Source: Stentor roeselii
Taxonomy: Eukaryota > Ciliophora > Heterotrichea > Heterotrichida > Stentoridae
NCBI GenBank assembly: GCA_006503475.1
Contig: RSEH01000192.1
Coordinates: forward strand, 1 to 64,000
Length of the DNA: 64,000 nt
Direction of reading: 5' to 3'
Shown in pieces: positions 24,713 to 56,182 of the stretch (positions within the stretch are counted from its first letter, which is position 1; each line of letters opens with the position of its first letter). A program made the position numbers and the translations under genes. The notes beneath the pieces are model-generated. The model saw only the letters and a list, made by a program, of their open reading frames with translations. It was not told the origin of the DNA and searched no databases.

Positions 24713-25186
24713 ATGAACCGAATCCCTAAAATTCTCGTGATTTCCGCTTCTGAAAGTGAATCAGAAAATTCTTCCTCCTTTGACGAAGAGTGTCTGGAAG
24801 GTGATCACTCAGAAGTAGACAAAATCGCAAAGACTCACCAGGACTTAAAGAGAAAATTGACTTATCAGCTTATGCAATTCAGAACTTCTTCAAGAGAGTT
24901 GCTTACTGATTCTGGTCAAAGTATCTGCAAGTCGCCGGAATTCATGACTTTGCCTGACTCTCCTGATTTGCAGGTTAAGGGGAAATCGTTTCATGAAATT
25001 GCGAAGATTATTTTGGACTTTCAGAATACTCAGAAAGAACTGGAAAAGGCAAAGAGTAACATTTTAAGCATGGACCTTGAATCGAAGGACCTTCATGTGA
25101 AACTTAGAAGCTTGGAAGATAGGATAAAGGAAAGAAGGAGTAGAAAAGATGTTCACTTAAGTCAGTGTAGTTGTGATATTTTTTAA
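24713..25186 (+). CDS. small coiled-coil protein with C-terminal CaaX box (CDIF)
   Basis: 157 aa. Acidic/Ser-rich N-terminus (SASESESENSSSFDEE), a helical segment near 45-65 (QDLKRKLTYQLMQFRTSSRE), a coiled coil at about 90-145, and an ending QCSCDIF: a CaaX prenylation box (C-D-I-F) with a second Cys two residues before it. Residue patterns match the protein at 55508-56182 in both helical parts, so the two are paralogues. Likely anchored to a membrane by a prenyl group. Function unknown. Divergent from the SHIPPO gene. Confidence 0.78.
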   Translation: MNRIPKILVISASESESENSSSFDEECLEGDHSEVDKIAKTHQDLKRKLTYQLMQFRTSSRELLTDSGQSICKSPEFMTLPDSPDLQVKGKSFHEIAKIILDFQNTQKELEKAKSNILSMDLESKDLHVKLRSLEDRIKERRSRKDVHLSQCSCDIF

Positions 25187-25444
25187 AGAATTGAATGAAT
25201 GGAGTGGGAGTGATTTTAGTGGATGGAAATAAGAGAGTTTTATTTATAAGCTGTTGGAATTAGTAGAAGGTAATGATTTTGTTTGGGTGTATTTTTGTGG
25301 ATTGGTTCATGTTTATCTGAAATGATTCTGAGTGATCTTCAAATACCTCAAACAACAGCCTTTGCCAGTGAAACTATTCAATTTTCCTCAATTCACTAGA
25401 CATCTTCAAATAAACCTTAATGTATTAAAATAACTATCTACCTA

Positions 25445-26443
25445 TCACATCAAATAAGCCAATACTCCAGTCAAGACAATCCATCCAGCATGATCCTCTC
25501 CATAATAAGCATCAGTTAAAACTTCCTTAACACACTGATCATTATTCTGTATTTTGCTATAATACAAAAACTCCCAAGTGACCTGCAAGATTCTATTTCC
25601 AAACCCGACCTGATCAATACAACTCTCCTTAAACCTTTTCAAAGTATTACAAACAGTCTTACTAGCATTAAGTGCACTTTTCCAAGAGTTATAATAATTC
25701 AATCCAGGTAAATCCCCATCAAACGGTGCACAAAAAGCAGTTTTATTCAAATTATACCCACAAGAGCAAGTCCCAGTGAAAAAACTGACACCGTCAGTTC
25801 CCTTGCAGTCCAAGTTGCTCTTACAAGGACTTGGCAAGCTGCTAAGGCTGACAGTTGCAACTTTGCACTTTCCAAGCAGGCTGAACTTCGGAAGTTTTGT
25901 GCATTGGGCCGTTTTGCATAGTTTAGAGACTCCGCCATTGCAGTCTCCAACATAAGTATCAATGGGAAGTGAGAAGTACTCAATGCAGGTGCCGACTTGT
26001 CCTGTCATATTACACCCTGCGTTGTTGACACATTCGAAGTCATTAGTGCAGCCTGTCTGACCTGCTGGTATCTGAGCAATGCAAACTCCTGAATGACTGC
26101 ACATCAGACCTGGGTCGCAATCTGAGTGGTCTGAACAGGTAGAGTTTAATGAACTTCCTTTGCAGGTACCTGATGAACATGACAGACTCGCGCATTTCAT
26201 GTTCGATGTGCAGTAGTCACCTGCGTAGCCTTGCTCGTATGGAGAGGAAGGGTCTTCACATTCAAAGGTCTCAGGGTTACACACTTGACCCGATACGCAT
26301 GGTTGAAGGTAAATGCTGGAATTTACTTGCTGCATACATGTTGCACTGTCTTTGAACTTATAATTCGGCGGAGGGCAACTGTATGAGGAACATGATTGGG
26401 ATAAGGTTTGAATTGACAATGTCTGAAATAAGAAAAATAGCAT
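25445..26443 (-). CDS. secreted or surface Cys-rich protein, 332 aa
   Basis: The N-terminus MLFFLFQTLSIQTLSQS looks like a short signal peptide. The mature part is dense in Cys with EGF-/dickkopf-like spacing (GLMCSHSGVCIAQIPAGQTG, CTNDFECVNNAGC, CSCGYN) and ends in a short hydrophobic tail (WIVLTGVLAYLM) that could be a GPI-attachment signal. No family can be named. Probably an extracellular or surface protein of the ciliate cortex. The 3' flank on the left is G/T-rich on the plus strand only weakly. Confidence 0.75.
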   Translation of the reverse strand: MLFFLFQTLSIQTLSQSCSSYSCPPPNYKFKDSATCMQQVNSSIYLQPCVSGQVCNPETFECEDPSSPYEQGYAGDYCTSNMKCASLSCSSGTCKGSSLNSTCSDHSDCDPGLMCSHSGVCIAQIPAGQTGCTNDFECVNNAGCNMTGQVGTCIEYFSLPIDTYVGDCNGGVSKLCKTAQCTKLPKFSLLGKCKVATVSLSSLPSPCKSNLDCKGTDGVSFFTGTCSCGYNLNKTAFCAPFDGDLPGLNYYNSWKSALNASKTVCNTLKRFKESCIDQVGFGNRILQVTWEFLYYSKIQNNDQCVKEVLTDAYYGEDHAGWIVLTGVLAYLM

Positions 26444-27159
26444 TTATTAAAAAGGATGGGATTTTGAGGGGTAGTTTTTGAGGGGTAGTATTTGATGATG
26501 GGTTTTAGTGATTTGGAGTTAGATTTGGTGTATTCATGTGTGATGATTTACTTGGTTATAAAAGAGATTGGATTCAACTTTTGAGTATTTTGTGATATTT
26601 GGATGTAGAAGGAAATTTTATTATAAATTGTTTGAAATGAAGTTTAACTTGAAATCTCTGGTTTGATATTAATAATAAATCATTTATCTAGGGAGTAAAA
26701 AGAATTTAAATAATTTAACCAATCCTCTAACTTTTGAATTGTTCGGGATAGTTTATAAAGTAGGATTATTCTAAAAACAAGATTACCTCATTTTATTTTT
26801 CACTAATACCTATGAATAATGTTTAAAATTATGTTAAACAATCGGAATAATTTATCTTATACCTAAACAAAATTTAAAAATAGAAAATATTGACTAAAAG
26901 ATTATATATGATCACTTATTTTTATTCAGTATAGTAAAGAGATTAGATATTAAAGGTTGAGTAAACTTAATTATGCAATATTCATTTGGAGAATGAATTA
27001 AGAACAAAGTTTTGAGTTAAATCTTGAACGAATTTAATTTAAGTATTTGATTGCAGTTGATTATCATTATTGTTAATCTATACTATTGGCTTATTGTTAA
27101 TAAATTAATAAGAGTAAAACCGATGAATACAGCTATTAATTCATACTTTAAGCTATTCG
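26444..27159. other. intergenic, 716 nt, AT-rich
   Basis: Very AT-rich sequence between the start of the Cys-rich gene and the 3' end of the decayed WD40 gene. No reading frame, RNA or repeat recognised. Confidence 0.6.
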
Positions 27160-29115
27160 TTACTTAATATAAAATAAAAATCTAGAAATTTCTGACTCAA
27201 GTTCTTTATATCTTTCAAGCCATACATTCGACTCTTCAAGAGTCCTGAACTCATACTCTTGATTCATATTCTCTAGATTCCAGACCCTAACTTCATTGAA
27301 CCACACCGAAACAAAGTACTTATCATCCTAAGTAACTAAAATTTTCCATATAATAGTACTATGACCATCCAATGCAGCACAACAATTCCCATGTTCAAGA
27401 TTCCAAATCAAAACTCTGATCCTCTCCTCCAGAAGCAGCTAAATTTCCCCTTTTATTAAATTTAACAGAGTTAACTTTTCCACTATGACTCTGAAACAAC
27501 CACTTACTCTGAAATGAAATAAATTCCCAAACAATAACAGAACCGTTTTCATCTCCAGAATCGCTGATGATCCATCATCAGCGAGATCAACACATCTGAC
27601 AGAAGCATAATGGCCATAGAGCCAAGCCTTAGACTGCATCGAATTCAGGTCCCACAAAATTAAATTATGAGAATATCCTTCAGAAGCACATATAAGTAAA
27701 TCTAATGAAGAAGAAATGCAAGTTGCCTTCACATAACCTCCTAATTGAACCAATTCTTTATTTTCGTTTGTCAAATAGTTCCAAATATAAACTCTGTCTA
27801 AGACCCCGAAAGAAATCAGGTTAGCTTCACTGTTTTCTGAAAGGAGGTTAAAAGTTTCGAGATTTAAATAAGATTCATTTGTTTTTGATGAGATTCGAGA
27901 GATTCCTATTTTCTTATCGTGAGAAGCGGAAAATATCAAATCGTTCATTGAAATTGACTGGGTTATTGCCAGGTTGTGGATTTGAAACTAATGCAATAGT
28001 TGAAGATTGTTTATATTCCAAATAATTATATTTTGGTCTTCTGAACTTGATATTAGGAGGTTATCGTTAGTTGTAAAGCACACAGATGTTATTAGTTTTG
28101 CATGGAATTCGAATAATTCAGTTTGATACTGATTTTCTTCGTCCCATATCTTTATTTTATGCATGAAGTCTCCAGTTGCTATAAGGTTTCCTTTGTTAGA
28201 GAGAGATATTGAGCATATATCCCCAGAGTCGTTTTCGATAAATGAAGTCCTATTTGAGTTGATTAAATCCCAGTACTCAATATTCGATCCTGTTCCTGAG
28301 TAAAACCGATTTTTCGAAGTCATGACTCCACAAAGAAGACTACCTCTAGTAGCAATCTTATTCATTAATAGATATGAACTTAAATCCCAGACACAAATTT
28401 CATTCTGAGAACTTCCAGAGACAATAAAAGAGTTATCCCAACTAAACTCAACAATAATAACAGACCCTGCATGTTCCTTAAATTTCTTTACTAAGCACCC
28501 TTTATTAAAATCCCATAAAATAACAGTTTTATCATCAGATCCAGAGACTGCAAATGAAGAAGTTTTAGAAATATTGACACAGTTAACTACTGACATATGC
28601 TTTACAAAACAGAAAGTTTGAACTCTTTTATCAACATCCCAAACTCTTACAGTTGAGCCACTAGAACCACTAATCAATGTTTTACCGTCACTTGATATTG
28701 CAAGCGAGGTGAACTCAGCATTGTGATTTTTTAGAAACTTATTTGTTTTTATATATGCTTTCTTTGAACTATTTGTGATGATTTTAAAAGGATTTTTTGA
28801 ATACATCTTTTCGATCATTTCATAAATATTGCTACTCTTTAGATTTAATGGTTTTATTATTGATGTTGACATTACTGTCAGATTGATTAACTCTGCTTCA
28901 CTAAATCTTCCTTTTAATAGAGAACTTAATTGTTTATCTAACTGATTGTGTAACAATTTACTTTTTTGTTCAATGAAATTAATAAGGTCTTTTGATTGAG
29001 AAGTAATTGTTTCTTTCAGTTCTAAAAGAATTTTTATTAATTGAAGAGCTAATAGTTTTTCTGAATGGGAAGGTAATTTCAATAACTCATTCACATGATT
29101 GGCTGATAGCCTCAT
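27160..29115 (-). pseudogene. decayed WD40-repeat gene
   Basis: The first 375 codons (29115 to 27991) encode an N-terminal helical region and about five WD40 repeats (TLISGSSGSTVRVWD, AVSGSDDKTVILWDFN, LISSSEDQNIIIWN). Then an in-frame TAG (27988-27990) interrupts, yet the same frame goes on with WD40 sequence (IFSASHDKKIGISRI, LILWDLNSMQSKAWLYGH). Two frame shifts follow, near 27570 and 27420, and a second TAG at 27328-27330, before a final stop at 27160. None of these breaks fits a 15-nt GT...AG intron. The gene is either a host pseudogene or translated only as the N-terminal 375-aa protein. It also lacks the strong upstream G/C polarity of active genes. Confidence 0.8.
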
Positions 29116-29615
29116 GTGTTGATATTATAAAAAATTTTGAAAATTTATTTGAATTTTCTAAATAAATAAATCGATTCATTGAAAACAATTATTTAGCTGT
29201 TAAAGAATTTACAGTTTTATTAAAAATGATTTGAAAAAATTTAGTTGTATCTAAATATTAAATTTAAAATTTTATTGTATTAAGTACTATTATTATGTTC
29301 TCCCAAATGTAAAGAACATAAGAAAACATTCTTGCAGTGGCATAGAAACTCAGGGTTTCTTAGGCAGTTCAAACAATTCATTATAAACCATATTAGGTTT
29401 TGGATACTAAGTTAAATATAGACATAATAAAGATCCATGATAGATTATTTGGTAATATTTATTCACATTCCCAAAGACATATTTTATAAAAGTCTTAAAA
29501 CCAAGCATTCATCTAAATTTCTCACAAAATAGAAAATACTCAAACAAAACTAAAAAAAATCATTCAAATCCAATCTTTTCATACGAAATATCCTTCCACT
29601 CTAAACCCTCATCAA
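29116..29615. other. intergenic, 500 nt
   Basis: AT-rich spacer between divergent genes. The last 110 nt are A/C-rich with hardly any G, as in other promoters of plus-strand genes here. Nothing else recognised. Confidence 0.6.
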
Positions 29616-30248
29616 ATGCTTACAACAAACAAGATAAACCAAAAAATGACTGAAGAAATCGATAACCTTCTAACAAACGACCAAGTGACTGAAATTCTCT
29701 ACAAAAACACTCCATGTAAAGGCTGCATTTACTTTTTTTTCCGTTTATTCGTATACATCTTAGTCCTAGTCGGTCTTGGTGACCTCCTGGGCAGCATATT
29801 AGTCTACACAATAACAAAAACACTAGACTGGTACAACGGTTCCTATTCTCTCTTAGGAGTATTTATCATTTTCCTGGCATCTTTTTCCTATACAACTCGC
29901 GAATCAACAGGCGGGACCTGTTTTTACTTATTTCTTCTCTTCCTATGTTTTTTAGGCCAACTAGGGGTGACCCTTGGGATTCTTTTCTACTCTAACTACC
30001 CTTCTTTAATCGGTTCAATGAACGCGAAGACAGTTCGATACGGAATGCTTTCGACTTCTATAATAATCTTCATATCTCTGATAGTCGGGTGTCTTTACCT
30101 CTGCATGATTTCAAAAGAAAACCAAAAACGAATGATTTATAATCAACTTTACGGAGAACCTGAAGATAACATGCAGCCTATTGTCGGAGTTGACCTTTGG
30201 AGGAAGTATGAAAGAACAATGCTGAGGTGGAATCGGTTGTTTAGATGA
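29616..30248 (+). CDS. four-TM membrane protein, 210 aa
   Basis: Unrecognised. Cytosolic-looking N-terminus (about 37 residues), four hydrophobic segments at about 40-62, 77-92, 101-124 and 143-167, then a polar C-tail with Trp/Arg (VDLWRKYERTMLRWNRLF). CKGC just before TM1 could be palmitoylated. Tetraspan topology, but no tetraspanin CCG motif. A second Met lies at codon 11. Convergent with EB1 (57-nt spacer). Confidence 0.75.
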   Translation: MLTTNKINQKMTEEIDNLLTNDQVTEILYKNTPCKGCIYFFFRLFVYILVLVGLGDLLGSILVYTITKTLDWYNGSYSLLGVFIIFLASFSYTTRESTGGTCFYLFLLFLCFLGQLGVTLGILFYSNYPSLIGSMNAKTVRYGMLSTSIIIFISLIVGCLYLCMISKENQKRMIYNQLYGEPEDNMQPIVGVDLWRKYERTMLRWNRLFR

Positions 30249-30305
30249 GGGTTTTAATAATTTGTATAATTGTTAGAATTTTCTCATCAAAATCCTTAAC
30301 TATTA

Positions 30306-31085
30306 TTACTCCTGGTTATTTGGAGCGATCAAGACTGAACCGTCCTCATTCACTGTCACTTGCTCGTCATCTGTCGCGAATAGGATCTTTTGGATGTCTG
30401 CTACTATTTCGTTTGATTGACCTTCGAAGTGGTCACAAAAGAGCTCTATTGACCTCAGCTTACTGAAGTAAAAATCTCTTTCTTTTTCTAAGGTGTCACT
30501 GTTCATTCTTAATTCGGCTATTAACTTCTCTGAGTTTTCGTCACTTGCTGATACTACTTTCTTTGCTGGAGCTGCTTTTGGAGCTGCAGACATTTTACTT
30601 CCACCTGATGGGCGGTCTGCTGGTCTTGATGGTGCTGGCGCCCTTTCTCCAGCTTTTCCAGGAGCTCCGTCCCAGGGAGTTTTCGCTCCTTTTCTCCTTT
30701 CAAGCGCAGGGTAATCAGCACCTCCTCTGCAATTGAGGTCAAAAAAGCGTTTGAACCATTGGAAAAACTCGAGATTGTCCTGGTACTTGGCTTTGATGAG
30801 CTTCTCCACTTCGATATGCTTATGAACCTGCTGCTTGTCGAAAGCTTGCTGAAGAAGTTTAAAGTTAGGAACGAACTCATGCTCAAATTTTGCCATCCAG
30901 TTGACCTTAGATAGGTTTATGCACCCAGGATACATCACGTCCATAATTTGGCAGTATGCTGCTCCTGAAGCCATTTGCTCTACTTTTGCAATATTTATAC
31001 AAAGCAAGCCATTGACCCATGAAATCAGTTCTGACTTAGGAACAAAAAAAGCCCCGTCCATCATACCAAAGTTCTCGTTTGCCAT
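30306..31085 (-). CDS. EB1: EB1 microtubule plus-end-binding protein
   Basis: 259 aa, the usual EB1 size. N-terminal calponin-homology domain (about 14-115): SELISWVNGLL, VEQMASGAAYCQIMDVMYPG, KVNWMAKFEHEFVPNFKLLQ, KLIKAKYQDNLEFFQWFKRF, all EB1 hallmarks. A basic Pro/Ala/Ser linker follows (about 130-190), then the coiled-coil EBH domain with RDFYFSKLRSIELFCDH near residue 215-230, which recruits SxIP/CAP-Gly partners. The C-terminal EEY/F motif is absent (ends APNNQE). Tracks growing microtubule ends in cytoplasm and cilia. Confidence 0.96.
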   Translation of the reverse strand: MANENFGMMDGAFFVPKSELISWVNGLLCINIAKVEQMASGAAYCQIMDVMYPGCINLSKVNWMAKFEHEFVPNFKLLQQAFDKQQVHKHIEVEKLIKAKYQDNLEFFQWFKRFFDLNCRGGADYPALERRKGAKTPWDGAPGKAGERAPAPSRPADRPSGGSKMSAAPKAAPAKKVVSASDENSEKLIAELRMNSDTLEKERDFYFSKLRSIELFCDHFEGQSNEIVADIQKILFATDDEQVTVNEDGSVLIAPNNQE

Positions 31086-31135
31086 TTTGGATTATAAGAC
31101 TACTCAACTCAAATCATCAAGTAAAAATAAAAATC

Positions 31136-31633
31136 TCAATAAATCGCTGACTTTTGATATCCTTTTCCTCTAACATACCTAACAGGTTTAAAAATTTCTG
31201 ATTTATCCCAACTTCCCTGATATTCAAAAGGAACAAAGCTTTTTGTAATCTGATGTTTCGAAGTTTCTCCAGTAATCGGGTTTAAATTATGATATCGAGG
31301 GTTTCTTTTAGTCTGCCGATGAAAATAATACTCATTCGGTTCAGGAGTGCCAGTCGTTATTTTTTCAGTCATCCTTGCATTCTTCTTCCCAAGAGGACTT
31401 ATCGACCTGTTCACCTGGTACTTCCTGACCGACCCTGTAATCGGATCATGAATCTCATTTCGACTTGACAACCTAAAAAATCGAGGACCTCCGTCGTTAG
31501 GGTCAGTTGAAAGCCGATCACTCTTCAAGTCTTGATTTTTTTCAGGACTTACAAGTGACCTTCGAGTGAAAAACTTGTCAGAGAAAGGATTTCGTTGAAC
31601 TGAAACCAAAGAAAAATCAACACTTTTTCTCAT
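31136..31633 (-). CDS. hypothetical basic protein with two PITG repeats, 165 aa
   Basis: No family recognised. Two related segments are visible: HDPITGSVRKYQVNRSI (about residue 62-78) and LNPITGETSKHQITKSF (about 115-131), each preceded by Arg/Asn-rich sequence. The remainder is basic with many Tyr, Phe and Arg and no hydrophobic core, resembling extended microtubule-lattice or ciliary inner proteins; that role is only a guess. Divergent from the next gene with 46 nt between starts. Confidence 0.68.
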   Translation of the reverse strand: MRKSVDFSLVSVQRNPFSDKFFTRRSLVSPEKNQDLKSDRLSTDPNDGGPRFFRLSSRNEIHDPITGSVRKYQVNRSISPLGKKNARMTEKITTGTPEPNEYYFHRQTKRNPRYHNLNPITGETSKHQITKSFVPFEYQGSWDKSEIFKPVRYVRGKGYQKSAIY

Positions 31634-31679
31634 TTATCCCAAAAATAATTCTAAAGAGTAGAAAAAATTCTGGTAAAAA

Positions 31680-32105
31680 ATGGTTATAATGATTCTTTCA
31701 GTGATCCTCGCATTGGCTACAGGGTTTGAATTAAGAGATCAGAATTGTATCTCTGGTGAAGAATTCACTGAGCAGAGCTTTCAGCTTGCGTTTTACCCTC
31801 CTGATGCTTCTGGCTTCTCTCAGCCGGTGCTTTATGGAGTTTTTAACCAGTTGACTTTTGTGGACCATGTTGTGGGCTCGTGGAGCACGAATAACACTGA
31901 TTGGAATGATTTTGTTCAGCCGATTGACTTGACTTATCCGAACACGATGCTTGTCATGTTCGCTCCTTGGATTCGCTTCTCGTCTTTGCCGGACTCGAAC
32001 ACTGGAGCTTATTTCGGAAGACTTCAGATATATGGAAATGTCTCAGGAGGTAATTCTAGTGAACTCATTTGGTGCACTCCTTTCGAGATTCCAGTAGTTA
32101 ATTAG
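31680..32105 (+). CDS. secreted protein, possibly distant ML-domain type, 141 aa
   Basis: Signal peptide (MVIMILSVILALATG), then about 125 residues rich in aromatic and hydrophobic beta-type sequence, two N-glycosylation motifs near the end (NVS, NSS) and a terminal LIWCTPFEIPVV. The pattern resembles, in size and its near-terminal Cys, the ML-domain proteins at 48.7-51.8 kb (which end NCWEIDFKL), but similarity is too weak to be sure. It ends 16 nt before the next start. Confidence 0.62.
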   Translation: MVIMILSVILALATGFELRDQNCISGEEFTEQSFQLAFYPPDASGFSQPVLYGVFNQLTFVDHVVGSWSTNNTDWNDFVQPIDLTYPNTMLVMFAPWIRFSSLPDSNTGAYFGRLQIYGNVSGGNSSELIWCTPFEIPVVN

Positions 32106-32121
32106 ATTAGGACTTAGATAA

Positions 32122-33054
32122 ATGAACGTATTTGGAAGATCTAAACCTATTAGAGCTATGCCTCTGACTACTACTGCTCCTAAACTTCCAACGAACTTTG
32201 CTGAAAAACTTTTGGAATTGGAAACTCAGCTGGGTTATAACTTATCGGTTAATTTGGTCTCATCTTTGATGCAACTTTATTCTGTAAGTGTTATGTAGTC
32301 AGCAATTGAGTACTACGAAAGCATCCATGACAAGAAGTACCTTCACTACAAAGACCGTCTTCAAAATCTCTTATCAAAGCAAGAAGTTCTCGAAATTCTC
32401 TCCTCATCAACTCCAACACCTGACAAGAAGTCATTTCAAGAAGTTCCAAAAAGTCCCCAATTAAACTCTCGTCAAACCCTATCATCAGCTCCATCATTTA
32501 ACCCTTTCCAATCAAGTCCAATAGTTCCAATCCGTCCAACAAGCCAAGTTTTTTCAGTCGAGGAAGACAAGCAAAGCCTTCCTCGTCGTCCTCAATCAGG
32601 CCAGTTCAACTCAAAATTGCCGACCCCAAAGAAAGAAGTTGACTTGGCGATAAACTCTCATCTTCACGAGACGAGCAACGCGAGTAGCATAGTAAAAGCG
32701 AGTATCAGAAGTCAAGAAGGCGACAACTTGCAACAAAGGCTTCAGGCACGTAAGAGAGCAAGCAGCTTGAAACCTCAAAAAATCATTGAAAAGGAAGAAA
32801 AGGATTTAAAAGCTACAAAAGCTAATAAACTTGAAATGTATCAAAAGGAAATTGAAGAAATTATGGAAAAATATGCTGAGGATAAAATTGTTAGGATTCA
32901 GATGATTGAGAAAAAATATAGAAGTGAAAATTGGCAGGGGAATAAAGATGAACGTGAGATTTTAATGAAGAAGGAAATTGAAGAGGCACAGATGGAGATT
33001 GTTAGGCAGAGGAAAGAGAGGATTGCTTTTTTAAGACATAAGTATGAAACATAA
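32122..33054 (+). CDS. hypothetical protein with C-terminal coiled coil, one intron, 305 aa
   Basis: Exons 32122-32283 and 32299-33054, joined by a 15-nt intron, in one frame from MNVFGRSKPIRAMP to FLRHKYET. Residues 25-85 are helical (NFAEKLLELETQLGYN to HYKDRLQNLLSKQE), about 90-190 are Ser/Pro-rich and disordered, and 215-300 form a long charged coiled coil (KLEMYQKEIEEIMEKYAED). No named family. Cytoskeletal or ciliary roles are plausible only by resemblance. Confidence 0.8.
32284..32298 (+). other. 15-nt intron
   Basis: Reads gtaagtgttatgtag, with A at position 10, phase 0. It holds an in-frame TAG. Removal joins MQLYS to SAIEYYE. Confidence 0.92.
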
Positions 33055-35204: not shown

Positions 35205-35217
35205 TTATTATCTGGTA

Positions 35218-39850: not shown

Positions 39851-40279
39851 ATGGCCAGCATTCAATTTAATCTTACTGAGTTCAAAAACGAAAAACCAAA
39901 AGAAAGACTCGTGATTCCATCTTCTGTGGCTTCAAGAATCGGTTCCCCACTGGAGAACTTCGTCGAGATGCCGAATTCAAAAGATCTTGGCTTGAGCTTT
40001 ATCGAGACTCGCTCAGAACTGATAACACCCAACAACCTTTTTTCGCCTTCTTACAGTCAAAATTCGGTGAAACCTCAAAATGAGCTGCTATTTGAACTTG
40101 ATATCATCAAAGAAAGGATCAGAGCAATAAACCAGAAACTTGAGCAGAATTTGGGTGTACTGAAAAAAACTGAAGATAGTCCTTTTTCCGCTTCTGAGAT
40201 TGTAAAAAGTAGGATTTTCGAAATGAAAGGGAAAAAAAAGATTCGATGTACTTGTACGAAAGATTGTGAAATATTTTAA
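39851..40279 (+). CDS. small coiled-coil protein with C-terminal CaaX box (CEIF)
   Basis: 142 aa. The N-terminal 75 residues are Ser/Asn/Pro-rich; a coiled coil (about 78-105, FELDIIKERIRAINQKLEQN) follows, then a basic stretch and the end RCTCTKDCEIF, a CaaX box (C-E-I-F) preceded by a C-x-C pair that could be palmitoylated. Its coil region aligns with the gene at 40592-41050 (AINQKLEQNLGVLKK versus ALNKKLKTNLVKLKE), so they are tandem paralogues. Likely prenylated membrane-associated protein. Confidence 0.78.
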   Translation: MASIQFNLTEFKNEKPKERLVIPSSVASRIGSPLENFVEMPNSKDLGLSFIETRSELITPNNLFSPSYSQNSVKPQNELLFELDIIKERIRAINQKLEQNLGVLKKTEDSPFSASEIVKSRIFEMKGKKKIRCTCTKDCEIF

Positions 40280-40591: not shown

Positions 40592-41050
40592 ATGGCTGAA
40601 AACCTTTCAAGTCCTTTAACTCCTTCAAGTCCTTCAGGTCCTTCCAGATTTAAATTTTCGTCAACTTCCATATCGACGCAAAATTCTCCTTCAAACTTGT
40701 TTTTCGAACTATCAGAAAAGTCGATTTTTGACTTCAGTTTTTTTGAATCAAAAGCAGACTGCAAAGGAGAAGACTTGGACTGTAAAGCTGAACTTACCAA
40801 GGCAAACTCTTCAGAAAGTCTCAACATTTCCAAGACAAGTTGCGTAGCCGAGCTCGAAATAATGTTAAATCAAACAAAAGCTCTCAACAAGAAACTTAAA
40901 ACTAACCTGGTCAAGTTGAAGGAAAGAGAAAAAAAACAAGTTTTTTTAGCTGAAAGTCTTGCAAGGCAAACGAGAAAAAGAAGAAGTTTTGACAGTTGTT
41001 TGAGAGAAGAAGTTTTATGTTCATGTTCAAATGGATGCGAGATTTTTTAG
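40592..41050 (+). CDS. small coiled-coil protein with C-terminal CaaX box (CEIF), tandem paralogue
   Basis: 152 aa. Ser/Pro-rich N-terminus (SPLTPSSPSGPSRFKFSSTS), acidic middle, coiled coil at about 90-120 and a basic segment before the end CSCSNGCEIF: CaaX box plus C-x-C. Same organisation as the upstream gene at 39851-40279. Stops 17 nt before the XK-like start. Confidence 0.78.
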   Translation: MAENLSSPLTPSSPSGPSRFKFSSTSISTQNSPSNLFFELSEKSIFDFSFFESKADCKGEDLDCKAELTKANSSESLNISKTSCVAELEIMLNQTKALNKKLKTNLVKLKEREKKQVFLAESLARQTRKRRSFDSCLREEVLCSCSNGCEIF

Positions 41051-41067
41051 ATGAGGGTAGATTATAA

Positions 41068-48155: not shown

Positions 48156-48735
48156 TGTTTAATTATTGATTTAGATATAAGATAAATTTAATCAAAAGTT
48201 AAAGTATAAAATAAGTGAATTCATAATTAATCAATTAAGAGATGTTAGGAACTTTAATGAATGATGATTAAGGTTTAGTGTTTAAGGTTTCTCTAGCTTT
48301 GAAGAAATTAATAGTGATTAATTTTGATAGAGTTAAGGGTGTTTATGTTTTAGAGTTTTTTTTAACAAAGATCACAGAAATATTTTTTCAAATTTTCTAT
48401 TGTGAATAGAGTTTGCACTTTAATATTTTGCTTATTTTAGGCAAAGCTTGTATTTATACAGCAAGCAAACCTTACCCAACAAAAAAAAAATCATAAAAAA
48501 CTCCAACATATCCGAAACTTTCTAATCCAATAACGATTAACGAAATAACCTAAAATAAATCCCAGTCTCAAAAGCAGTCCTCTTCCAACCCCAAACTAAA
48601 AATCCCTTATCTCCAACTCACACACATCACTAAATCCAAAAAACCCCATCTTAAAAATCCAACTTCATTAAAACCTCTCCATCTTTTGTCTTCATTTCCT
48701 CCGCCTTGCAAATAAAAACTCATATTTACCTAAAC
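48156..48735. other. intergenic, 580 nt
   Basis: AT-rich, with an A-run near 48481. The right half (48520-48735) is C-rich and G-poor on the plus strand, that is G-rich on the coding strand, matching the 3'-flank pattern of the minus-strand ML gene. No gene recognised. Confidence 0.6.
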
Positions 48736-49152
48736 TTAAAGCTTAAAGTCGATTTCCCAGCAGTTCAATTCTTGATTCTGATTATTAACGAGTCCAACCT
48801 TGACAACATAAGACCCTGAAGGAGCGATTGACGGAACATGAGCCTTTTGGATGAAAGATCCAGTTTGACCTGCACTGAAAGTTCCTGAAGCAGGGACCAC
48901 GTCGTTGAAAGGAAGAACTCCGTTCACAACAGCATGAAGATAAAGGCCTGTGATGGTCTGAGCGCTTGAAAAGGTTCCAGTCATGTTGGCAACGACTCCC
49001 ACGTTCTTGGTCAATGGCCAGGGGTTCACGTCCATGCTGGTCACGGTGAAGGCACCTGAGCCTCCTGTGCAGAGCTTTCCGGCTTGGGTTTGAAGGGAAG
49101 GGGAAGCTATGGTCAGGGCTATGATACATGCGACAATAATTAAACTTTTCAT
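48736..49152 (-). CDS. secreted ML-domain (NPC2/MD-2-like) protein, copy 1
   Basis: 138 aa from MKSLIIVACIIALTIAS, the start shared with the other copies; an upstream in-frame Met at 49194 would add a duplicated KSLII segment. Signal peptide about 1-17; mature domain of about 120 aa with AGKLC, VNPWPLTKN, MTGTFSSAQTITGLYLHAV, FIQKAHVPSIAPSGSYVVKV and the end NCWEIDFKL. Two Cys suit the disulfide of the ML (lipid-recognition) fold. In the family such proteins carry sterols or phospholipids in vesicles or outside the cell. One of four tandem copies. Confidence 0.88.
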   Translation of the reverse strand: MKSLIIVACIIALTIASPSLQTQAGKLCTGGSGAFTVTSMDVNPWPLTKNVGVVANMTGTFSSAQTITGLYLHAVVNGVLPFNDVVPASGTFSAGQTGSFIQKAHVPSIAPSGSYVVKVGLVNNQNQELNCWEIDFKL

Positions 49153-49620
49153 TATTATTAAAGATTTTATCATGGGAATCGATAATAATATCAAATAAAG
49201 TATTTACTTGGACTTTTAATCGGTCTAGGATAAGGATTAGATTGAAGGTTTTGATTGTATTTAAATGTTAGGGTTATTTTTTGTTGATGTTTTGGAGTTG
49301 TTTTAGTTTAAAGATATTTTTAGAGGAATTATAGAGGTCTGGAATTATCAATCAGTTAAAAATCGTGGAGGGATTCAAATCAAGAATTTAATTAGTAAGA
49401 GACACAAGCAATTTGAATATCTTTAATAATTCTTATAATTCTTGTTTAATAATTCTAAACTCTCATAGCTTAAAGTCTAATATTAGCTAAGTAATCAAAA
49501 AGAATATTCTAAACTCCTTAGAAGCTAAACCTAAGTCTCAAGCTTTTTCTGAATATACCATATTCAATCTAAAATAATTCCCCAGCTGTAGAGAAAATTA
49601 ATTGAATTTCTTATCTAATC
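49153..49620. other. spacer between ML copies 1 and 2, 468 nt
   Basis: The part next to copy 1's start is G/T-rich on the plus strand. The part next to copy 2's 3' end is A/C-rich. No coding feature. Confidence 0.6.
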
Positions 49621-50034
49621 TTAAAGTTTGAAGTCGATTTCCCAGCAGTTCAAATGTGCGTTCTGACTATTAACAAGTCCAACCTTGACAACATAAGACC
49701 CTGAAGGAGCGATCGATGGGACATGAGCCTTCTGGATGAAAGAAGCAGTCTGACCAGCAGCATAAGTTCCTGAAGCAGGGACCACATCGTTGAAAGGAAG
49801 AACTCCGTTTACAAGAGCATTGAGGTAAAGACCAGTGACAGTCTGAGCACTTGAAAAGGTTCCAGTCATGTTGGCCACGACTCCCACATTCTTGGTCAAT
49901 GGCCAGGGGTTCACGTCAAAGCTGGTCACTGTGAAGCCGCTGCCTCCAGAGCAAAGTTTTCCGGCTTGGGTTTGGAGTGAAGGGGAAGCCATGGTAAGGG
50001 CCACGAGACATGCAACTACGATCATTCCTTTCAT
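49621..50034 (-). CDS. secreted ML-domain protein, copy 2
   Basis: 137 aa with signal peptide MKGMIVVACLVALTMAS and the same ML domain: VTSFDVNPWPLTKN, FSSAQTVTGLYLNALVNG, AGQTASFIQKAHVPS, end LNCWEIDFKL. One residue shorter than its sisters near SGGSGF. Directly upstream lies the ACATGAGC block shared with copies 3 and 4. It encodes a secreted or vesicle-lumen lipid-binding protein by family. Confidence 0.88.
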   Translation of the reverse strand: MKGMIVVACLVALTMASPSLQTQAGKLCSGGSGFTVTSFDVNPWPLTKNVGVVANMTGTFSSAQTVTGLYLNALVNGVLPFNDVVPASGTYAAGQTASFIQKAHVPSIAPSGSYVVKVGLVNSQNAHLNCWEIDFKL

Positions 50035-50488
50035 ATTTATTAGCTCATGTCTGGAGAAATATTAACTTAGTTAGGAAAAGATCAAAAAAAGATAAGAATC
50101 AAATCGTTTTTATTATTGGATCGAGTGGGTTGGATGTAGGAATCTTTGAATGGGCTTAGAAAAATACTTGAATTCAAGGTGTTATTTTGGAAGTGAAATA
50201 AGGTGATTGGATTAATTTGGTTTGTCTTAAATATTACTTTAAAAGTATCTAAGAATTTTTATATCAACTTCGCTTTCAAATATTCTTTATACAAGCAGAA
50301 CCTAAAAAAAATTTACTATTATCAGCCTGTTTATCTCTTAATCAGACAGTTACCCTTATAGCCCACAAAATCTTTAACTCCATTTAAACAACCCAAGAAA
50401 TCTCCTGAACTTTCCCCTAACAATCCCTAAATAATTTTTTCCACACCTCCCTATTAAATTCACCAGAATTCAAACCAATTATCTAAAT
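50035..50488. other. spacer between ML copies 2 and 3, 454 nt
   Basis: Contains the conserved block near copy 2's start. The remainder is AT-rich with G/T-rich left and A/C-rich right parts. No gene. Confidence 0.55.
50043..50050 (-). promoter_or_regulatory. conserved ACATGAGC block upstream of ML copy 2
   Basis: On the minus strand ACATGAGC lies just upstream of the ATG, followed by an AATAAAT stretch. It occurs at the same position in copies 3 and 4. It includes an ATG that opens a two-codon reading frame (Met-Ser-stop). Role unknown. Confidence 0.5.
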
Positions 50489-50905
50489 CTAAAACTTAAA
50501 GTCGAGTTCCCAGCAGTTCAGGTGTTGGTTCTGACTATTGACAAGTCCAACCTTGACAACATAAGACCCTGAAGGAGAGATCGAAGGAACGAATGACTTC
50601 TGTATAAATGACGCATGCTGACCAGCAGCATAAGTTCCTGAAGCAGGGACCACATCATTGAAAGGAAGGACTCCATTCACAAGTGCATTCAGATAGAAGC
50701 CGGTGATTGTCTGGGCACTTGAGAAGGTTCCAGTCATGTTCCCTACAGCAGCTGAATTCTTCACCAATGGCCAGGGATTCACGTCAAAGCTTGTCACTGT
50801 GAAAGCGCCTGTGCCTCCACTGCACAGTTTTCCGGCTTGGGTTTGAAGGGAAGGAGAAGCCATGGAGAGAGCTACTAAGCATGTGATGATTATCAGCCTT
50901 TTCAT
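50489..50905 (-). CDS. secreted ML-domain protein, copy 3
   Basis: 138 aa from MKRLIIITCLVALSMAS. An in-frame upstream Met at 50917 (MSYK-MKRL) comes from the conserved ACATGAGC block and would blunt the signal peptide only slightly. Domain: VNPWPLVKNSAAVGNMTGTF, TITGFYLNALVNG, ASFIQKSFVPSISPS, end LNCWELDFKF. It is the most divergent copy: GVVAN is AAVGN and AHVPSIAPS is SFVPSISPS. Same family role as the others. Confidence 0.87.
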   Translation of the reverse strand: MKRLIIITCLVALSMASPSLQTQAGKLCSGGTGAFTVTSFDVNPWPLVKNSAAVGNMTGTFSSAQTITGFYLNALVNGVLPFNDVVPASGTYAAGQHASFIQKSFVPSISPSGSYVVKVGLVNSQNQHLNCWELDFKF

Positions 50906-51400
50906 TTTATAGCTCATGTCTAAAGGAATTTTTAATGGTGAAAAATTCAGAGATTAAAGGATTTGGAATTTCGGATTTTTGAGATATGTGGGTTTATGAG
51001 GATTTTTTTTGAAGGGTTTTTATTGATTAGGATAGAAATTGTGATGGATCCGAGATTTAATATATGATCGGAATCAAAAACTGATAATTTTTAGGAGAAC
51101 TTTAGTTTATTTTTAGCCTTTCTTGAAAGAATAATTAGAAAATTTCTTATTCATTTGTAAAGTTTTAATATCTCCTCTTGAATCACTGGAAAATTCGCTT
51201 TTCCTATTTACTTTCAAAGATCAGATAAAAATCTTGCGATGAAAAACTCTTCTTCCTACTAAATTAAATCATCCTGAAAGATATTCCTTCCCAAATATTC
51301 CAAAAACCAAACTCATCTTCAAAAACCCAAAAACTCTCCACTTCATTAAAAATTTCCATATCCAAAAATCCTCCTACTTACTAAACTCAATAACTTAAAC
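50906..51400. other. spacer between ML copies 3 and 4, 495 nt
   Basis: Holds the conserved block near copy 3's start. A/C-rich towards copy 4's 3' end. No other feature. Confidence 0.55.
50912..50919 (-). promoter_or_regulatory. conserved ACATGAGC block upstream of ML copy 3
   Basis: Same block as at copies 2 and 4. Here its ATG is in frame with the coding sequence and would add four residues. Role unknown. Confidence 0.5.
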
Positions 51401-51817
51401 CTATAGCTTAAAGTCGATTTCCCAGCAGTTCAAATGTTCATTATTGCTATTGACGAGTCCGATTTTCACGACATAAGACCCCGAAGGAGCGATTGACGGA
51501 ACATGAGCCTTTTGGATGAAAGATCCAGTTTGACCTGGAGTGAAAGTGCCTGAAGCAGCGACCACATCATTGAAAGGAAGGATTCCGTTGACGACAGCAT
51601 GAAGATAAAGGCCTGTGATGGTCTGAGCGCTTGAAAAGGTTCCAGTCATGTTGGCCACGACTCCCACGTTCTTGGTCAATGGCCAGGGGTTCACGTCCAT
51701 GCTGGTCACGGTGAAGGCGCCTGTCCCTCCTGTGCAGAGCTTTCCGGCTTGGGTTTGAAGGGAAGGAGAAGCCAGGGTCAGGGCCATGAGGCATGCCACT
51801 ATGATTGCACCTTTCAT
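51401..51817 (-). CDS. secreted ML-domain protein, copy 4
   Basis: 138 aa with MKGAIIVACLMALTLAS signal peptide and the ML domain (TGTFSSAQTITGLYLHAV, FTPGQTGSFIQKAHVPSIAP, end LNCWEIDFKL). Nucleotide blocks at about 51590-51750 are almost identical to copy 1, although copies 2 and 3 lie between them, which suggests gene conversion. Probably the outermost (or most recent) member of the array. Confidence 0.88.
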   Translation of the reverse strand: MKGAIIVACLMALTLASPSLQTQAGKLCTGGTGAFTVTSMDVNPWPLTKNVGVVANMTGTFSSAQTITGLYLHAVVNGILPFNDVVAASGTFTPGQTGSFIQKAHVPSIAPSGSYVVKIGLVNSNNEHLNCWEIDFKL

Positions 51818-53000
51818 ATTTATTGGCTCATGTAGAATGGAATTTGTATGGTTTTAATCAAAAGTTAAGAGTTCAGGGAAGGATTTGTCTTGGTGAACAT
51901 CTGAAAAAATTTTGAAATTATTTGGAGAAGGAGGATGATTGAGTTGTTTATTGAGGGATTTTAGACGGTGGGTTAAGTTTTTGAGATTTTGGATATGGAA
52001 GATTGGAAATTGATTGGATGAACTTAGTGGAGGATGTTTCTGGAATAAGTATGATTTTGAGTATCTAGTTGTGTTTTATAGTAGATTGATAGTACTTTTA
52101 GATATTTTATTCAAGTTAGAATTATATGGTAGTTTATTATGTATAAGAATCTGTTTTGGATTAACATAAACATATACAGCAAATATTGTAATAATAAATA
52201 ATCCGGAGCTTTTGTAGTCTTCAAGAGGTGAATTGAGCAATACTGAAACAGAGTCAGGATTCAAGTTCGAATAAGTATAATCTTAAAAGAACCTAGCACG
52301 CAAGGTTAAGTAGGATCCTTCTAATTAGTCTCTACATCTCTATATCACAATGTAAATATTGTATAATTTGATAAAAGTTAGCTCTTCTTTTAAAAGAAGT
52401 ATAAACTATAAAATAAATTATGAAGTATATAACTTTAGTTACTTTTGAATGATTAAACTCAAGGATCTTGTTGCGAAAAATTAATAGTTGTTGTTGATCT
52501 TATAATGCATTAAAGTTAAAAATACATCAGTAACGATAATATATTAGAAAATCATAGAAACGTGTGTGTTAATTTAGTTGGTAGAGTAAAAAAAATTCTA
52601 AGTGTATAAGTATGCAATATGTAGTTAAATCAATAATATTCATGATATTCTTTTACTTTTTAATAATCTTCTTAGCGAGAATATATAAGTCATCAATCAT
52701 GTATATCATAATGAAACTTCATTTGGCAAAGTTGGATTACTGTTAGTACAAGAATCGCTTTAATCTGGTCAAATCCAATAAAATTATTAAGGCAAATAAA
52801 TGTATTTATTAAAAGACGTGAAAATAATTCAATCAAACTCGAAGCAAGTTAAATTTTAAAGACAAATAACCTAAATAGCTTATAAAAACTCACTCTTTTC
52901 AAACTCATGTCCTATAAGGCCCTTATAAAATCTTAATAAAAAGAATACTAGTCCCAACATTCAAATCACCCAAAAAATTTAAATATAAACCCGAAAATAA
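51818..53000. other. gene-poor stretch, 1183 nt
   Basis: After the G/T-rich region upstream of ML copy 4 the sequence is AT-rich without a supported gene, RNA or repeat. The last 200 nt before 53001 are A/C-rich, as in other upstream regions. Confidence 0.6.
51826..51833 (-). promoter_or_regulatory. conserved ACATGAGC block upstream of ML copy 4
   Basis: Third occurrence of the block. Its ATG opens a three-codon frame (Met-Ser-Gln-stop) ending before the real start. Role unknown. Confidence 0.5.
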
Positions 53001-54866
53001 ATGGCCGTGCCTTCATCATTAGAACGATCAGCAAGACTAAGATTCGCATTTCAAAACCCAAGCAACTTCACAGAAGCTACACGTCCAGGAGCAAACCTCG
53101 GGACAGTGAACCGTTTAAGCAGTCCGATCCTGCGAAGCGTGGCGTCTCCCGTGAATCGAATCGCGAATGTTCAAAGTCCAGAGCCTAGCATGTTAGAAGA
53201 AATTGTATCTCAATGTCGGCGAATCAATCCAGACTTTTCAGCATCTTCTGGCAGTTTAAATCTAAGCGTGAGCCAAGCACTGAAAAAAGCAGTCGATTCA
53301 ATCATCGACAATCAAGGCAAGTCCCGTCCAGGAGATGTGGAAAAAATGAGAGAAACTATCTCAGACCTTACTTTTAAACTTGAAGAAATGAGTAAAAAAC
53401 TTCAGATTAGTGTCGAAAATGAAAGAAAAGCTTCATTGAAAGAAGAAAAGTTCGCCATTGACGAAATCAAACTTTTGACTGAAAAAAAACATCTGGAAAA
53501 GGAAAAAAGTCAGATAAGTGCTTTGAAGAAAAATTACCTTCAACTTGAATCAGAACTAAAGAAAGTTGAAGAAATTCTTGAAAATAGTCGCGCTGAGAAC
53601 CAGGAAAAAGAAATAAGGATTCAAGAACTTCTCAATGAAAACCTTCAGAAAGACTCAGAAATCGAGGAATTGAGGAAGAAGGAAATGCCTGAATTAATCA
53701 AAATTCAGGAACTTCAAGAAGAACTTGCTCTTCAAACTGAAAACATCTTGCAAAGAAGTCAAGAAATTGAAGAACGTGAAAATCGAGCAGCTGATGTTGA
53801 ATCTCGCTTGAAAAAAGAAGTTTATGACCTGGAAGCTCAGAAAAAAGAAGTCTTGAGTCAATTAAAGGACTTGAGTGACTTAAAACTGAAACTGAATCAA
53901 GAAAGTGAATTCTTCGAACAGAGTAACAAAGAACTCGCATCTTTTAAACTTACTTTTGAAATCGAACAAAACAAGCTAAGAGAACAGCGACAAGCTTTAG
54001 AACTAGAAAAAGCAGAAATCGCAGCGACTCATCGTGCGCTGACTTCTCAAAAGTCAGAACTTTTAGAAGCTGTTGAAGACTTAGAACAACAAAAACTTGA
54101 GTTCATCCGGACTTTGAATAATGCTGAAGAAAATCCTGGGTCTTTCCCGAACTTGCCTGAAAGTCACCCTCCGGTGAGTAGAGAGACTTTAGAGTTCTTT
54201 CCACATCTGAGGTCTTTGATCTCGGACACTGTTAATGAACTTGCGAGAAGAACGGTCTTTATTGAGAAGTGGACGAATAACCTTAAAGATAGAGAAGTCA
54301 CTTTTGAGTCGAGACTTGATGATGTCAAACTTGTTCTTGCATTGCTTAATGAAAAAGTTCATACTTTGGAAAAAGGTTTTCATGAATTTGAACCTTTGAT
54401 CTCTGTTGTTCAGGATATGCTTGAGGAAATTGATACAAAAAAACTTATACTTGAGGAGGATGCTAAGAGTTTAAATCAGGAGATTATGGAAAGTTGTGGA
54501 AATGATTATTTGGGAAGTAATGCTAATATTTTCACTGAATTGTTAAATGATTTTGAAATCAAAGCTAATGAGTTACTCGCTGTTGATGAACATTTGCAGG
54601 ATCTGCAGGAAAAACTTTTAGCACAAATTGAAGAAAACTCGAGAGTTGCTAGGTTTCTGATGGAAGATCGACTCGAATTCGAAAAAGAAAAGCTTGAAAA
54701 CAAAAGAGATATCGAAGAAGCCACTTCAAAACTTCTACAGATCCAAGCTAAAGCTGACATGACATTAGACCAAATGAGTAAGAAAGAAAAGGAAGTTCTT
54801 GCGCTACAACAGACGATTGACTGTAGAAGTCCTTTTTCTGATGATTTTTCAGCTAGTTTAAATTAA
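53001..54866 (+). CDS. long coiled-coil protein, 621 aa
   Basis: N-terminal 75 residues are basic/Ser-rich. Then an almost continuous coiled coil runs from about 115 to 370 (DVEKMRETISDLTFKLEEMS, ENLQKDSEIEELRKKEMPEL) and, after a Pro-rich break near 380-395 (FPNLPESHPPVSRE), from about 400 to 610. It has no motor, FERM or other catalytic domain. The layout suits a basal-body, centrosome-like or cortical structural protein, but the identity is unknown. Confidence 0.82.
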   Translation: MAVPSSLERSARLRFAFQNPSNFTEATRPGANLGTVNRLSSPILRSVASPVNRIANVQSPEPSMLEEIVSQCRRINPDFSASSGSLNLSVSQALKKAVDSIIDNQGKSRPGDVEKMRETISDLTFKLEEMSKKLQISVENERKASLKEEKFAIDEIKLLTEKKHLEKEKSQISALKKNYLQLESELKKVEEILENSRAENQEKEIRIQELLNENLQKDSEIEELRKKEMPELIKIQELQEELALQTENILQRSQEIEERENRAADVESRLKKEVYDLEAQKKEVLSQLKDLSDLKLKLNQESEFFEQSNKELASFKLTFEIEQNKLREQRQALELEKAEIAATHRALTSQKSELLEAVEDLEQQKLEFIRTLNNAEENPGSFPNLPESHPPVSRETLEFFPHLRSLISDTVNELARRTVFIEKWTNNLKDREVTFESRLDDVKLVLALLNEKVHTLEKGFHEFEPLISVVQDMLEEIDTKKLILEEDAKSLNQEIMESCGNDYLGSNANIFTELLNDFEIKANELLAVDEHLQDLQEKLLAQIEENSRVARFLMEDRLEFEKEKLENKRDIEEATSKLLQIQAKADMTLDQMSKKEKEVLALQQTIDCRSPFSDDFSASLN

Positions 54867-55078
54867 TGGAGAAATATAGATGAACTGTTTTAGCATTGAA
54901 GTACTTTCTCAAGATTCTTTATATAAGAAATTAATTCTTGATATAAAATTTCCATTAAATTAGCACCTTAACCATTAATTAAATTCAAAGAAATAATGAT
55001 ATTTGACATCATTGATATTTTTCTTTTTAAGCTTGGATTTCCTCACCATTTTCAATAAATCGATAATAATTTCAAATA

Positions 55079-55321
55079 ATGGCTCTATTTCAAACGACCC
55101 CAGATAATCAAATTCTTGATTTCTGGCTTTCAACAGTAAGAAGCGAACTGCATTCTGCAGCAATTCAAAAAGCTTCAGATTACAACTTTGACTTTTTCAA
55201 GTCAGTTCCAAGTGAAGTTAAAGGTCGATTCGACTGGTCAAGCCACGAAGAAGTACTTGAAAAGAGCCAAAAAAATCAACTCTTAAATTTTTCCGAAAAT
55301 TTTAACCCGCATTCGCGGTAA
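55079..55321 (+). CDS. hypothetical small protein, 80 aa
   Basis: Unrecognised soluble protein, helical in the first half (NQILDFWLSTVRSELHSAAI) with an aromatic-rich middle (DYNFDFFKSVPSEVKGRFDW). No TM, no Cys. Its start context is A-rich and it is flanked by spacers of about 200 nt. The 3' flank, however, is C-rich rather than G-rich because it faces the convergent gene. Confidence 0.58.
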   Translation: MALFQTTPDNQILDFWLSTVRSELHSAAIQKASDYNFDFFKSVPSEVKGRFDWSSHEEVLEKSQKNQLLNFSENFNPHSR

Positions 55322-55507
55322 CTAACCCAATTTTCTCTAAATCCTTTCCAACTCCAAAATTCTATCCAAATTCCAAAAATTATTGAAAAATTGATAATTT
55401 TCATAATCCTTAAAAAATCTTAAAATCTTCTCTTCACCCTGAACGCCCATCTCTCCAAACCTAAACCTAAGAAAAACCCGGTTTGATCCATATTTACATA
55501 TAAACAA

Positions 55508-56182
55508 CTAAGATACAATACACAAGCAATTTTCAGTCCTACTCTTCTCAGGACCTTCAGTGATATCGAGGCCATTAAGCGACCTTTCCAATTCTTTGAT
55601 TCTATTTTCAAGTGCAATATTTTTCTCTTCAGTATTGACAATCATCCTTTCACTCTCCAGTAGTCTCTGGGCAGCCTCATTGATTTCCTTCTGAATATCT
55701 TGAATCTTCTGATAAACAAGTCCAAGTCCATCATCCGATTCGACGCTGTTCATATTCAAAGACTTGTTCTGGTCGATCTGGCTTCGAGCGTCGACATAAA
55801 CGCCTTCTAAGTTTTTTTTGAAGTTTTCAAGTTCATGTAAAATCAAAGAACTTTTTCCTGACTGGAGCTGAGACCTCGACAACAGGTGCCTTGAAGTGTT
55901 TTTGAAATCTTGAATAGTCAAAGTCGCTGTTCTTCTTAATTCTTGATTTTTCGTCTTTATTAGGCTTAGTTGCTCTTGAGCGTTCATCTCAGGAACACTT
56001 ATGGAAGAGTTTAGACTTGCAAAACTCGCTTCTTCGTCGTCTGGAGGAGGGACTCCAAGTGGTGACTCGGTTTGACTATTTACAATTGATGGGGATTTTT
56101 GGGGAGAAGGGTCGAGCTTTGATAACTTTTTCATGGACTTTGGAGAAGGACTTATGTGCAAGTCTGAAATTGTTCCGTTCAT
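55508..56182 (-). CDS. coiled-coil protein with C-terminal CaaX box (CIVS), 224 aa
   Basis: Ser/Pro-rich N-terminus, helical region 70-125 (QELRRTATLTIQDFKNTSRH) and a coiled coil at about 150-200 (IQKEINEAAQRLLESERMIV), ending ENCLCIVS. C-I-V-S is a farnesylation-type CaaX box with a second Cys two residues before it. Both helical parts resemble the protein at 24713-25186 (QDLKRKLTYQLMQFRTSSRE there), so they are dispersed paralogues. Probably a prenylated peripheral membrane protein. Confidence 0.8.
   Translation of the reverse strand: MNGTISDLHISPSPKSMKKLSKLDPSPQKSPSIVNSQTESPLGVPPPDDEEASFASLNSSISVPEMNAQEQLSLIKTKNQELRRTATLTIQDFKNTSRHLLSRSQLQSGKSSLILHELENFKKNLEGVYVDARSQIDQNKSLNMNSVESDDGLGLVYQKIQDIQKEINEAAQRLLESERMIVNTEEKNIALENRIKELERSLNGLDITEGPEKSRTENCLCIVS

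Follow-up and report, generated by a model that had tools for sequence, protein, structure and literature searches.

The window analysed here, the 64,000-nucleotide stretch at positions 1–64,000 of the Stentor roeselii contig C108 (RSEH01000192.1), contains four genes for small proteins that end in a CaaX box preceded by additional cysteines, and we designate them 24713, 39851, 40592 and 55508 after their first positions. The four open reading frames (ORFs) run from ATG to stop at the coordinates of an initial annotation of this DNA, and our reading confirmed the CaaX boxes that it had listed (tails CSCDIF, CTCTKDCEIF, CSCSNGCEIF and CLCIVS; Table 1). Searches of the genome (44.4 Mb in 522 contigs) place these genes in two families with members on many contigs.

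Of 54 window ORFs that do not overlap one another and reach 100 amino acids (aa), only these four have a cysteine at position −4. As background we used 175 ORFs from the window and the other extracted loci, with family members and pattern-selected ORFs removed: a cysteine at −4 occurs in 6/175, its combination with I, L or V at −2 in 3/175, and I, L or V at −2 alone in 23.4%. Four CaaX-like ends among 54 window ORFs then correspond to P ~0.014, or ~0.066 if the tandem pair is counted as one, so that clustering in the window is, taken alone, weak evidence; the strong evidence comes from the genome-wide families, beside which the clustering is modest. The N-termini had also been described as Ser-rich, and serine is indeed enriched in the four proteins (11–17% versus 9.3% in the background ORFs), although only mildly.

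Table 1. Coordinates of the four CaaX-ending genes, their parts and a neighbouring gene (pLDDT, predicted local distance difference test)
Feature	Position	Strand	Basis
Family 1 (group A) gene, 157 aa, tail CSCDIF	24713..25186	+	
Family-1 conserved first helix region, ~residues 35–64 of 24713	24815..24904	+	Family alignment
C-terminal coil of 24713, ~residues 93–141	24989..25135	+	Alignment; heptad score equalled by 10/200 shuffles
CxCaaX tail CSCDIF of 24713	25166..25183	+	
Family 2 gene, 142 aa, tail CTCTKDCEIF	39851..40279	+	
N-terminal linear motif IPSSVASRIGSP of 39851, conserved in the C1 and C55 paralogues	39914..39949	+	
Coil of 39851, residues 76–109	40076..40177	+	AlphaFold model and heptad score
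CxCxxxCaaX tail of 39851	40247..40276	+	
Family 2 gene, 152 aa, tail CSCSNGCEIF, tandem paralogue of 39851	40592..41050	+	
N-terminal linear motif FDFSF of 40592 (F.FSF)	40727..40741	+	
Coil of 40592, ~residues 82–109	40835..40918	+	Heptad score not above shuffles (28/200)
CxCxxxCaaX tail of 40592	41018..41047	+	
Family 1 (group C) gene, 224 aa, tail CLCIVS	55508..56182	−	
N-terminal linear motif GVPPPDD of 55508 (G[VI]PPPxD)	56036..56056	−	
First predicted helix of 55508, residues 68–141	55760..55981	−	AlphaFold model
Second predicted helix / C-terminal coil of 55508, residues 148–204	55571..55741	−	AlphaFold, pLDDT mostly >90; heptad score equalled by 10/200 shuffles
CxCaaX tail CLCIVS of 55508	55511..55528	−	
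Cys-rich neighbour protein, convergent to 24713, outside the anchor system	25445..26443	−	

Two families of CaaX-ending genes

To score kinship apart from the tail, we removed the last 14 residues of each protein and scored every member with a profile built from the rest of its group (groups A, B and C); E values of these tail-less scores are for 20,000 sequences, and 100 heptad-position-preserving shuffles of each protein served as control. Protein searches of the genome returned C1, C116, C387, C55, C516, C490, C223, C84, C176 and C30 (E 0.018–0.051 for the last three) as relatives of 40592 and 39851, and C519 (72% identity), C93, C148, C315 and C513 as relatives of 55508. The genome search gives merely E 1.8–5 for C410 and C58, the relatives of 24713; C410 was accepted by pairwise BLASTP (E 9e-6) together with the tail-less group profile and C58 by the tail-less profile, while C520, found with C410 as query (E 4.7e-19), is a further family-1 member. 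The tail-less 55508-group profile also placed C5 (genome-search E 0.107) in family 1 (E 5.2e-5). Adjoining the C84 gene, a 140-aa ORF ending in CKIW (C84b) is a probable tandem family-2 member, with phmmer E 2.6e-5 against 22 sequences and just 7.6 bits (E 4.6) with the tail-less profile.

In total we read 10 members of family 1 and 12 plus this probable one of family 2, that is, 23 proteins of 119–231 aa, all with a CaaX box; the further members that the initial annotation had expected do exist in the window's genome. A strict set, restricted to genes matched by another gene's query at a genome-wide E ≤ 0.01, comprises 16 distinct genes, and CaaX is found in 14/14 whose intact end was read, the remaining two being C151 and C315. 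We excluded rows whose ends were read and lack CaaX (C77, C248, C101, C189, C182, C522 and C338, all with E of at least 0.019) and rows whose ends were not read (C91, C12, C194, C186, C339 and C20; C3, C58:1665, C505, C238, C219 and C61, with E of at least 0.0895; and C391, with E 0.448). By our reading, the C248 row lies antisense to a histidine-kinase-like gene.

The similarity within the groups exceeds that expected of generic coils. Leave-one-out tail-less profiles recover 19/21 members at E ≤ 4.2e-6, the exceptions being C176 (0.021) and C30 (11), and for 21/21 members the real tail-less score is above all 100 heptad-preserving shuffles, so that coil similarity is better than that of unrelated coils. 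The two pairings proposed within the window stand: 39851 and 40592 match each other with a BLASTP E of 1e-9, and the group A and group C profiles, which contain 24713 and 55508, align with an hhalign E of 7.9e-11 (97%). The direct pairwise E between 24713 and 55508 is just 0.009; scored by the tail-less 55508-group profile, 24713 reaches E 1.4e-4, and the tail-less cross-scores between groups A and C range from 2.7e-7 to 0.041, with the exception of C410 against profile C (E 55). By profile comparison, groups A and C are one family.

The further claim that all four window proteins form a single family did not hold: tail-less profiles give no significant score between family 1 and family 2 (E of at least 0.12 in 34/34 cross-comparisons), and neither do the hhalign comparisons of the two families (60% over 46 coil columns, and 9%). 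Seven of the 34 cross-family scores lie above all 100 heptad shuffles, and very distant kinship in the coil region is conceivable. Nonsynonymous divergence (dN) is 0.28–0.84 in 11 pairs and synonymous divergence (dS) is 1.7–2.9 in the four computable pairs and saturated in the other seven, which fits old paralogues under constraint.

AlphaFold was run on the family alignments for 39851 and 55508. The model of 39851 contains one confident helix (residues 76–109) and that of 55508 two long helices (residues 68–141 and 148–204), with a low-confidence N-terminus and tail in both cases. A simple heptad score was equalled by 10 (24713), 28 (40592), 10 (55508) and 4 (39851) of 200 shuffles. The listed matches to solved structures consist chiefly of coils, the N-terminal coil of APC among them, and designed helices, and no model reached its cut-off in a Pfam scan of family members; a PsbQ match in one member (E 9.1e-5), below the Pfam cut-off, was taken as chance. 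The N-termini carry conserved short motifs that look like putative docking peptides: G[VI]PPPxD in 5/10 family-1 members and F.FSF (5/13), IPSxVxSRIxSP (3/13) and [DEN]FSPI (3/13) in family 2.

Some neighbouring genes deserve mention. The Cys-rich protein encoded next to 24713 (Table 1) has a homologue at L008:152-1333 (BLASTP E 5e-21) that is convergent to the CaaX gene of C410; as the Cys-rich homologues are convergent to both CaaX genes, the two-gene unit was probably duplicated jointly. On the other side of 24713, a 322-aa ORF (23652–24620, minus strand) contains repeated PGPxxY / PGPADY motifs resembling SHIPPO/ODF3-type repeats. A family-2 gene adjoins a TMEM33/Pom33-like membrane protein gene (L014:203-1117, Pfam E 2.9e-14) whose product ends in SSCQIF.

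The C-terminal tail and lipid-modifying enzymes

Canonically, the a residues of a CaaX box are usually aliphatic and X largely decides the prenyltransferase, according to the excerpts of PMC11121372. A cysteine at −4 and I, L or V at a2 (−2) are found in 23/23 members read, and an additional cysteine lies within eight residues upstream of the −4 cysteine in 22/23, C84b being the exception, which bears out the plan of a CaaX box with an extra cysteine put forward in the initial annotation. The upstream cysteines are confined to particular positions: −6 in nine tails, −8 in 13, both −8 and −10 in 10, and none at −5 or −9 in 22 tails. The arrangement CxCxxxC is present in 10/13 family-2 tails and CxC at −6/−4 in 9/10 family-1 tails; outside the last 12 residues, cysteine makes up 1.0% of the residues of the members. 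X is F in 12 of the 23 tails, S, I, W and M in two each, and otherwise L, T or V. The 20 residues before the box contain no consistent basic stretch (net charge −5 to +6), so that S-acylation is the likelier second membrane signal than a polybasic patch. The stop codons of 15 family genes (TAA 7, TAG 7, TGA 1) fit the standard code that Stentor is reported to use (excerpts of PMC9505925).

We searched the genome with protein-family models for the enzymes that would modify such tails, using 14 prokaryote controls. By family matches, the host gene set for CaaX processing (prenyltransferases, Rce1-like and ICMT) is present. Prenyltrans matched three places (E ≤ 4.1e-84; 0/14 controls), which may correspond to the beta subunits of farnesyltransferase, geranylgeranyltransferase I and Rab-GGTase, and the PPTA repeats of the alpha subunit were found in three frames (2/14 controls). 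The DHHC family matched 138 places above cut-off, 24 of them with in-frame stops by our count, and 0/14 controls, a striking number compared with the ~23 DHHC proteins of humans. At G000:C176:11950-19676, a stretch of ~8 kb holds a family-2 CaaX gene together with one DHHC and one Rce1-like match, an arrangement that may be coincidence.

Similar tails occur elsewhere in the genome. The pattern C-x-I-F-stop is of little use (1124 places versus 868 for its reversal); CxC-x-Phi-F-stop, with TGG also allowed, occurs at 222 places versus 127 for the reversed pattern. We extracted the 30 loci listed first, a sample that is not random, and in 7/30 the tail ends an ORF of at least 77 aa from ATG. None of the seven proteins is matched by either family's profile (best E 2.6). 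One has a macro domain, two form a pair with a [KR]V[VT]F stretch, two are Cys-rich and coil-like, and the remaining two are of other kinds. The macro-domain protein (L072:1501-2409, Pfam E 2.6e-35) ends in KKKCTCLVF and is a possible lipid-anchored macro domain. The pair, L053 and L071, are small homologues (BLASTP E 8e-29) with the tails CTCAVF and CACLIF, and their shared stretch resembles the RVxF phosphatase-docking motif. One of the coil-like proteins, of 254 aa (L073:1501-2265), ends in SCNCGIF and gives a sub-threshold match to the intermediate-filament model PF00038 (E 4.8e-6, 26.9 bits versus a cut-off of 40).

A putative lipid anchor, its alternatives and its counterparts

The two families, the CaaX spacing with its constant a2 residue, the upstream cysteines and the enzyme-family matches support a design in which, probably, both families are small membrane-anchored coiled-coil adaptors with a predicted prenyl and palmitoyl anchor. 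In the mechanism that we infer, the −4 cysteine would be prenylated by farnesyltransferase or geranylgeranyltransferase I, Rce1 would clip the last three residues and ICMT would methylate the new end. One or two upstream cysteines (−6, or −8 and −10) would then be S-acylated by DHHC enzymes, locking the protein on the membrane, and the coil would pair the chains and so multiply the lipid anchors. The disordered, somewhat Ser-rich N-terminus would extend into the cytosol and present G[VI]PPPxD, F.FSF or IPSxVxSRIxSP to partners.

Several observations weigh against this interpretation. The predicted template modelling score is 0.26–0.27 for both AlphaFold models, in which the placement of the helices relative to each other is not fixed, and the heptad score is weak (equalled by at least 10/200 plain shuffles) in 8/22 members, including 24713, 40592 and 55508. 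The membership of C30, C176 and C84b, which have tail-less E values of 11, 0.021 and 4.6, is partly circular because they were accepted partly by the tail or by neighbouring position, and the genome-search E is merely 0.018–0.107 for C84, C176, C30 and C5. A 24713 relative, C151 (L002, G000:C151:13704-13997; E 1.1e-7), has in-frame stops and no readable CaaX end and could be a decayed copy or a copy with tiny introns; the tail of C315 (E 2.9e-8) could not be read, and both were left out of the 23. The a1 residue is charged (D, E, K or R) in 7/22 tails, and neither a charged a1 nor F or W as X belongs to the textbook-best CaaX. Among the enzymes, ICMT is represented by one frame carrying one TAA and its model also matched 5/14 prokaryote controls, while the model behind the two Rce1-like places matches 11/14.

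That the proteins are unrelated low-complexity coils with accidental terminal cysteines would agree with the marginal window count and with the weak heptad score of three of the four window proteins; it is extremely improbable given homologues across the genome with E values down to 1.7e-82, the constant tail spacing and the outcome of the tail-less leave-one-out test. The cysteines could instead form a metal- or redox-binding site to which the hydrophobic end is incidental, and the retention of CxCxxxC or CxC in most tails of each family speaks for such a site. Metal binding does not, however, require the −4 cysteine and the aliphatic a2 residue that are constant in 23/23 members, family 1 mostly has only two cysteines, C516, C176 and C84b retain CaaX without a full CxCxxxC, and CxC-x-Phi-F also ends unrelated proteins. 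We regard a metal or redox site as quite unlikely and favour the lipid anchor.

To the initial annotation the plan was not known from any family described, but it is found in vertebrate paralemmins. According to the excerpts of PMC3405040 and PMC11887803, paralemmins (PALM1-3 and palmdelphin, from vertebrates and lancelet) combine a coiled coil with a CaaX box and upstream palmitoylated cysteines and link the membrane to spectrin; their C-terminal cysteine cluster is prenylated and di-palmitoylated, and CaaX-bearing forms other than teleost palmdelphin-B have three cysteines within the final seven residues. The coil holds an 11-residue paralemmin motif, and the search of other invertebrate genomes in that work turned up no paralemmin (excerpts of PMC3405040). 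The ciliate families resemble paralemmins in the predicted coiled-coil plan, the C-terminal cysteine cluster with CaaX and the presumed cytosolic N-terminus; they differ in cysteine spacing, which is CxC or CxCxxxC. Among 22 members scanned, none matched the paralemmin Pfam model (PF03285) at E ≤ 0.1. The reported lack of paralemmins in the other invertebrate genomes searched makes shared descent unlikely. As judged from sequence, these are new families of a known design plan, which fit that of paralemmin without Pfam homology. Among the literature matches listed, none describes a ciliate CaaX coiled-coil family and none concerns Stentor with CaaX.

Other systems share fewer features. Nuclear lamins also combine a coiled coil with CaaX, but the ciliate proteins, at 119–231 aa, are without a filament domain (no PF00038 or lamin tail match in the members scanned with Pfam), and lamins are not known to carry an upstream palmitoylated cysteine. 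Heterotrimeric G-protein gamma subunits, in the plant type with extra cysteines, are small and helical with a CaaX end and sometimes an acylated upstream cysteine; the ciliate proteins share the small helical build and the CaaX end but are longer, have a disordered N-terminus and gave no match to the G-gamma Pfam domain (PF00631) among the members scanned. Alveolin and ISP proteins are not known to carry a CaaX box. They are palmitoylated components of the inner membrane complex in alveolates, the same supergroup, and acylated cysteines hold them at cortical membranes (excerpts of PMC6212826); attachment through acylated cysteines is also predicted for the ciliate families.

What the anchored proteins would do can be read in two ways. 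They may specifically link the membrane to the cortical cytoskeleton, as paralemmin-1 does with spectrin: the plan is the same, and two of the seven other CxC-x-Phi-F proteins (L073 and L076) look coiled-coil by eye. The scanned members, however, contain no cytoskeletal domain and no Pfam family above cut-off, and their matches to solved structures are generic coils, so that we consider this role possible but less likely than not. Alternatively, they may be scaffolds for signalling or trafficking; docking motifs typically take the form of short conserved peptides within disordered sequence, such as those in the N-termini here, and the L053/L071 pair provides, with another CxC-x-Phi-F tail, an example of an RVxF-like stretch. 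No known docking motif was identified in either family, though no systematic search was made, and this role is possible, if short of probable.

Beyond the preferred lipid-anchor design, we speculate, with considerable reserve, that the dual-lipid CxC..CaaX tail is a general-purpose anchor that both coiled-coil families share with proteins of other kinds (macro-domain, Cys-rich coil, phosphatase-docking-like and more), and that it is matched by the expansion of DHHC enzymes beyond 100. The coil families might then have arrived at the paralemmin design by convergence, as its protist counterpart, and combinatorial lipidation might send many proteins to different cortical membranes. Convergence with the paralemmin plan would mean that coiled-coil linkers with a prenyl-palmitoyl anchor evolved independently at least twice. 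With well over 100 acyltransferase places and two families of coils that probably carry a lipid tether, the genome offers concrete candidates for membrane addresses in a ciliate, which bears on the long-standing problem of cortex patterning and rebuilding in a large single cell.

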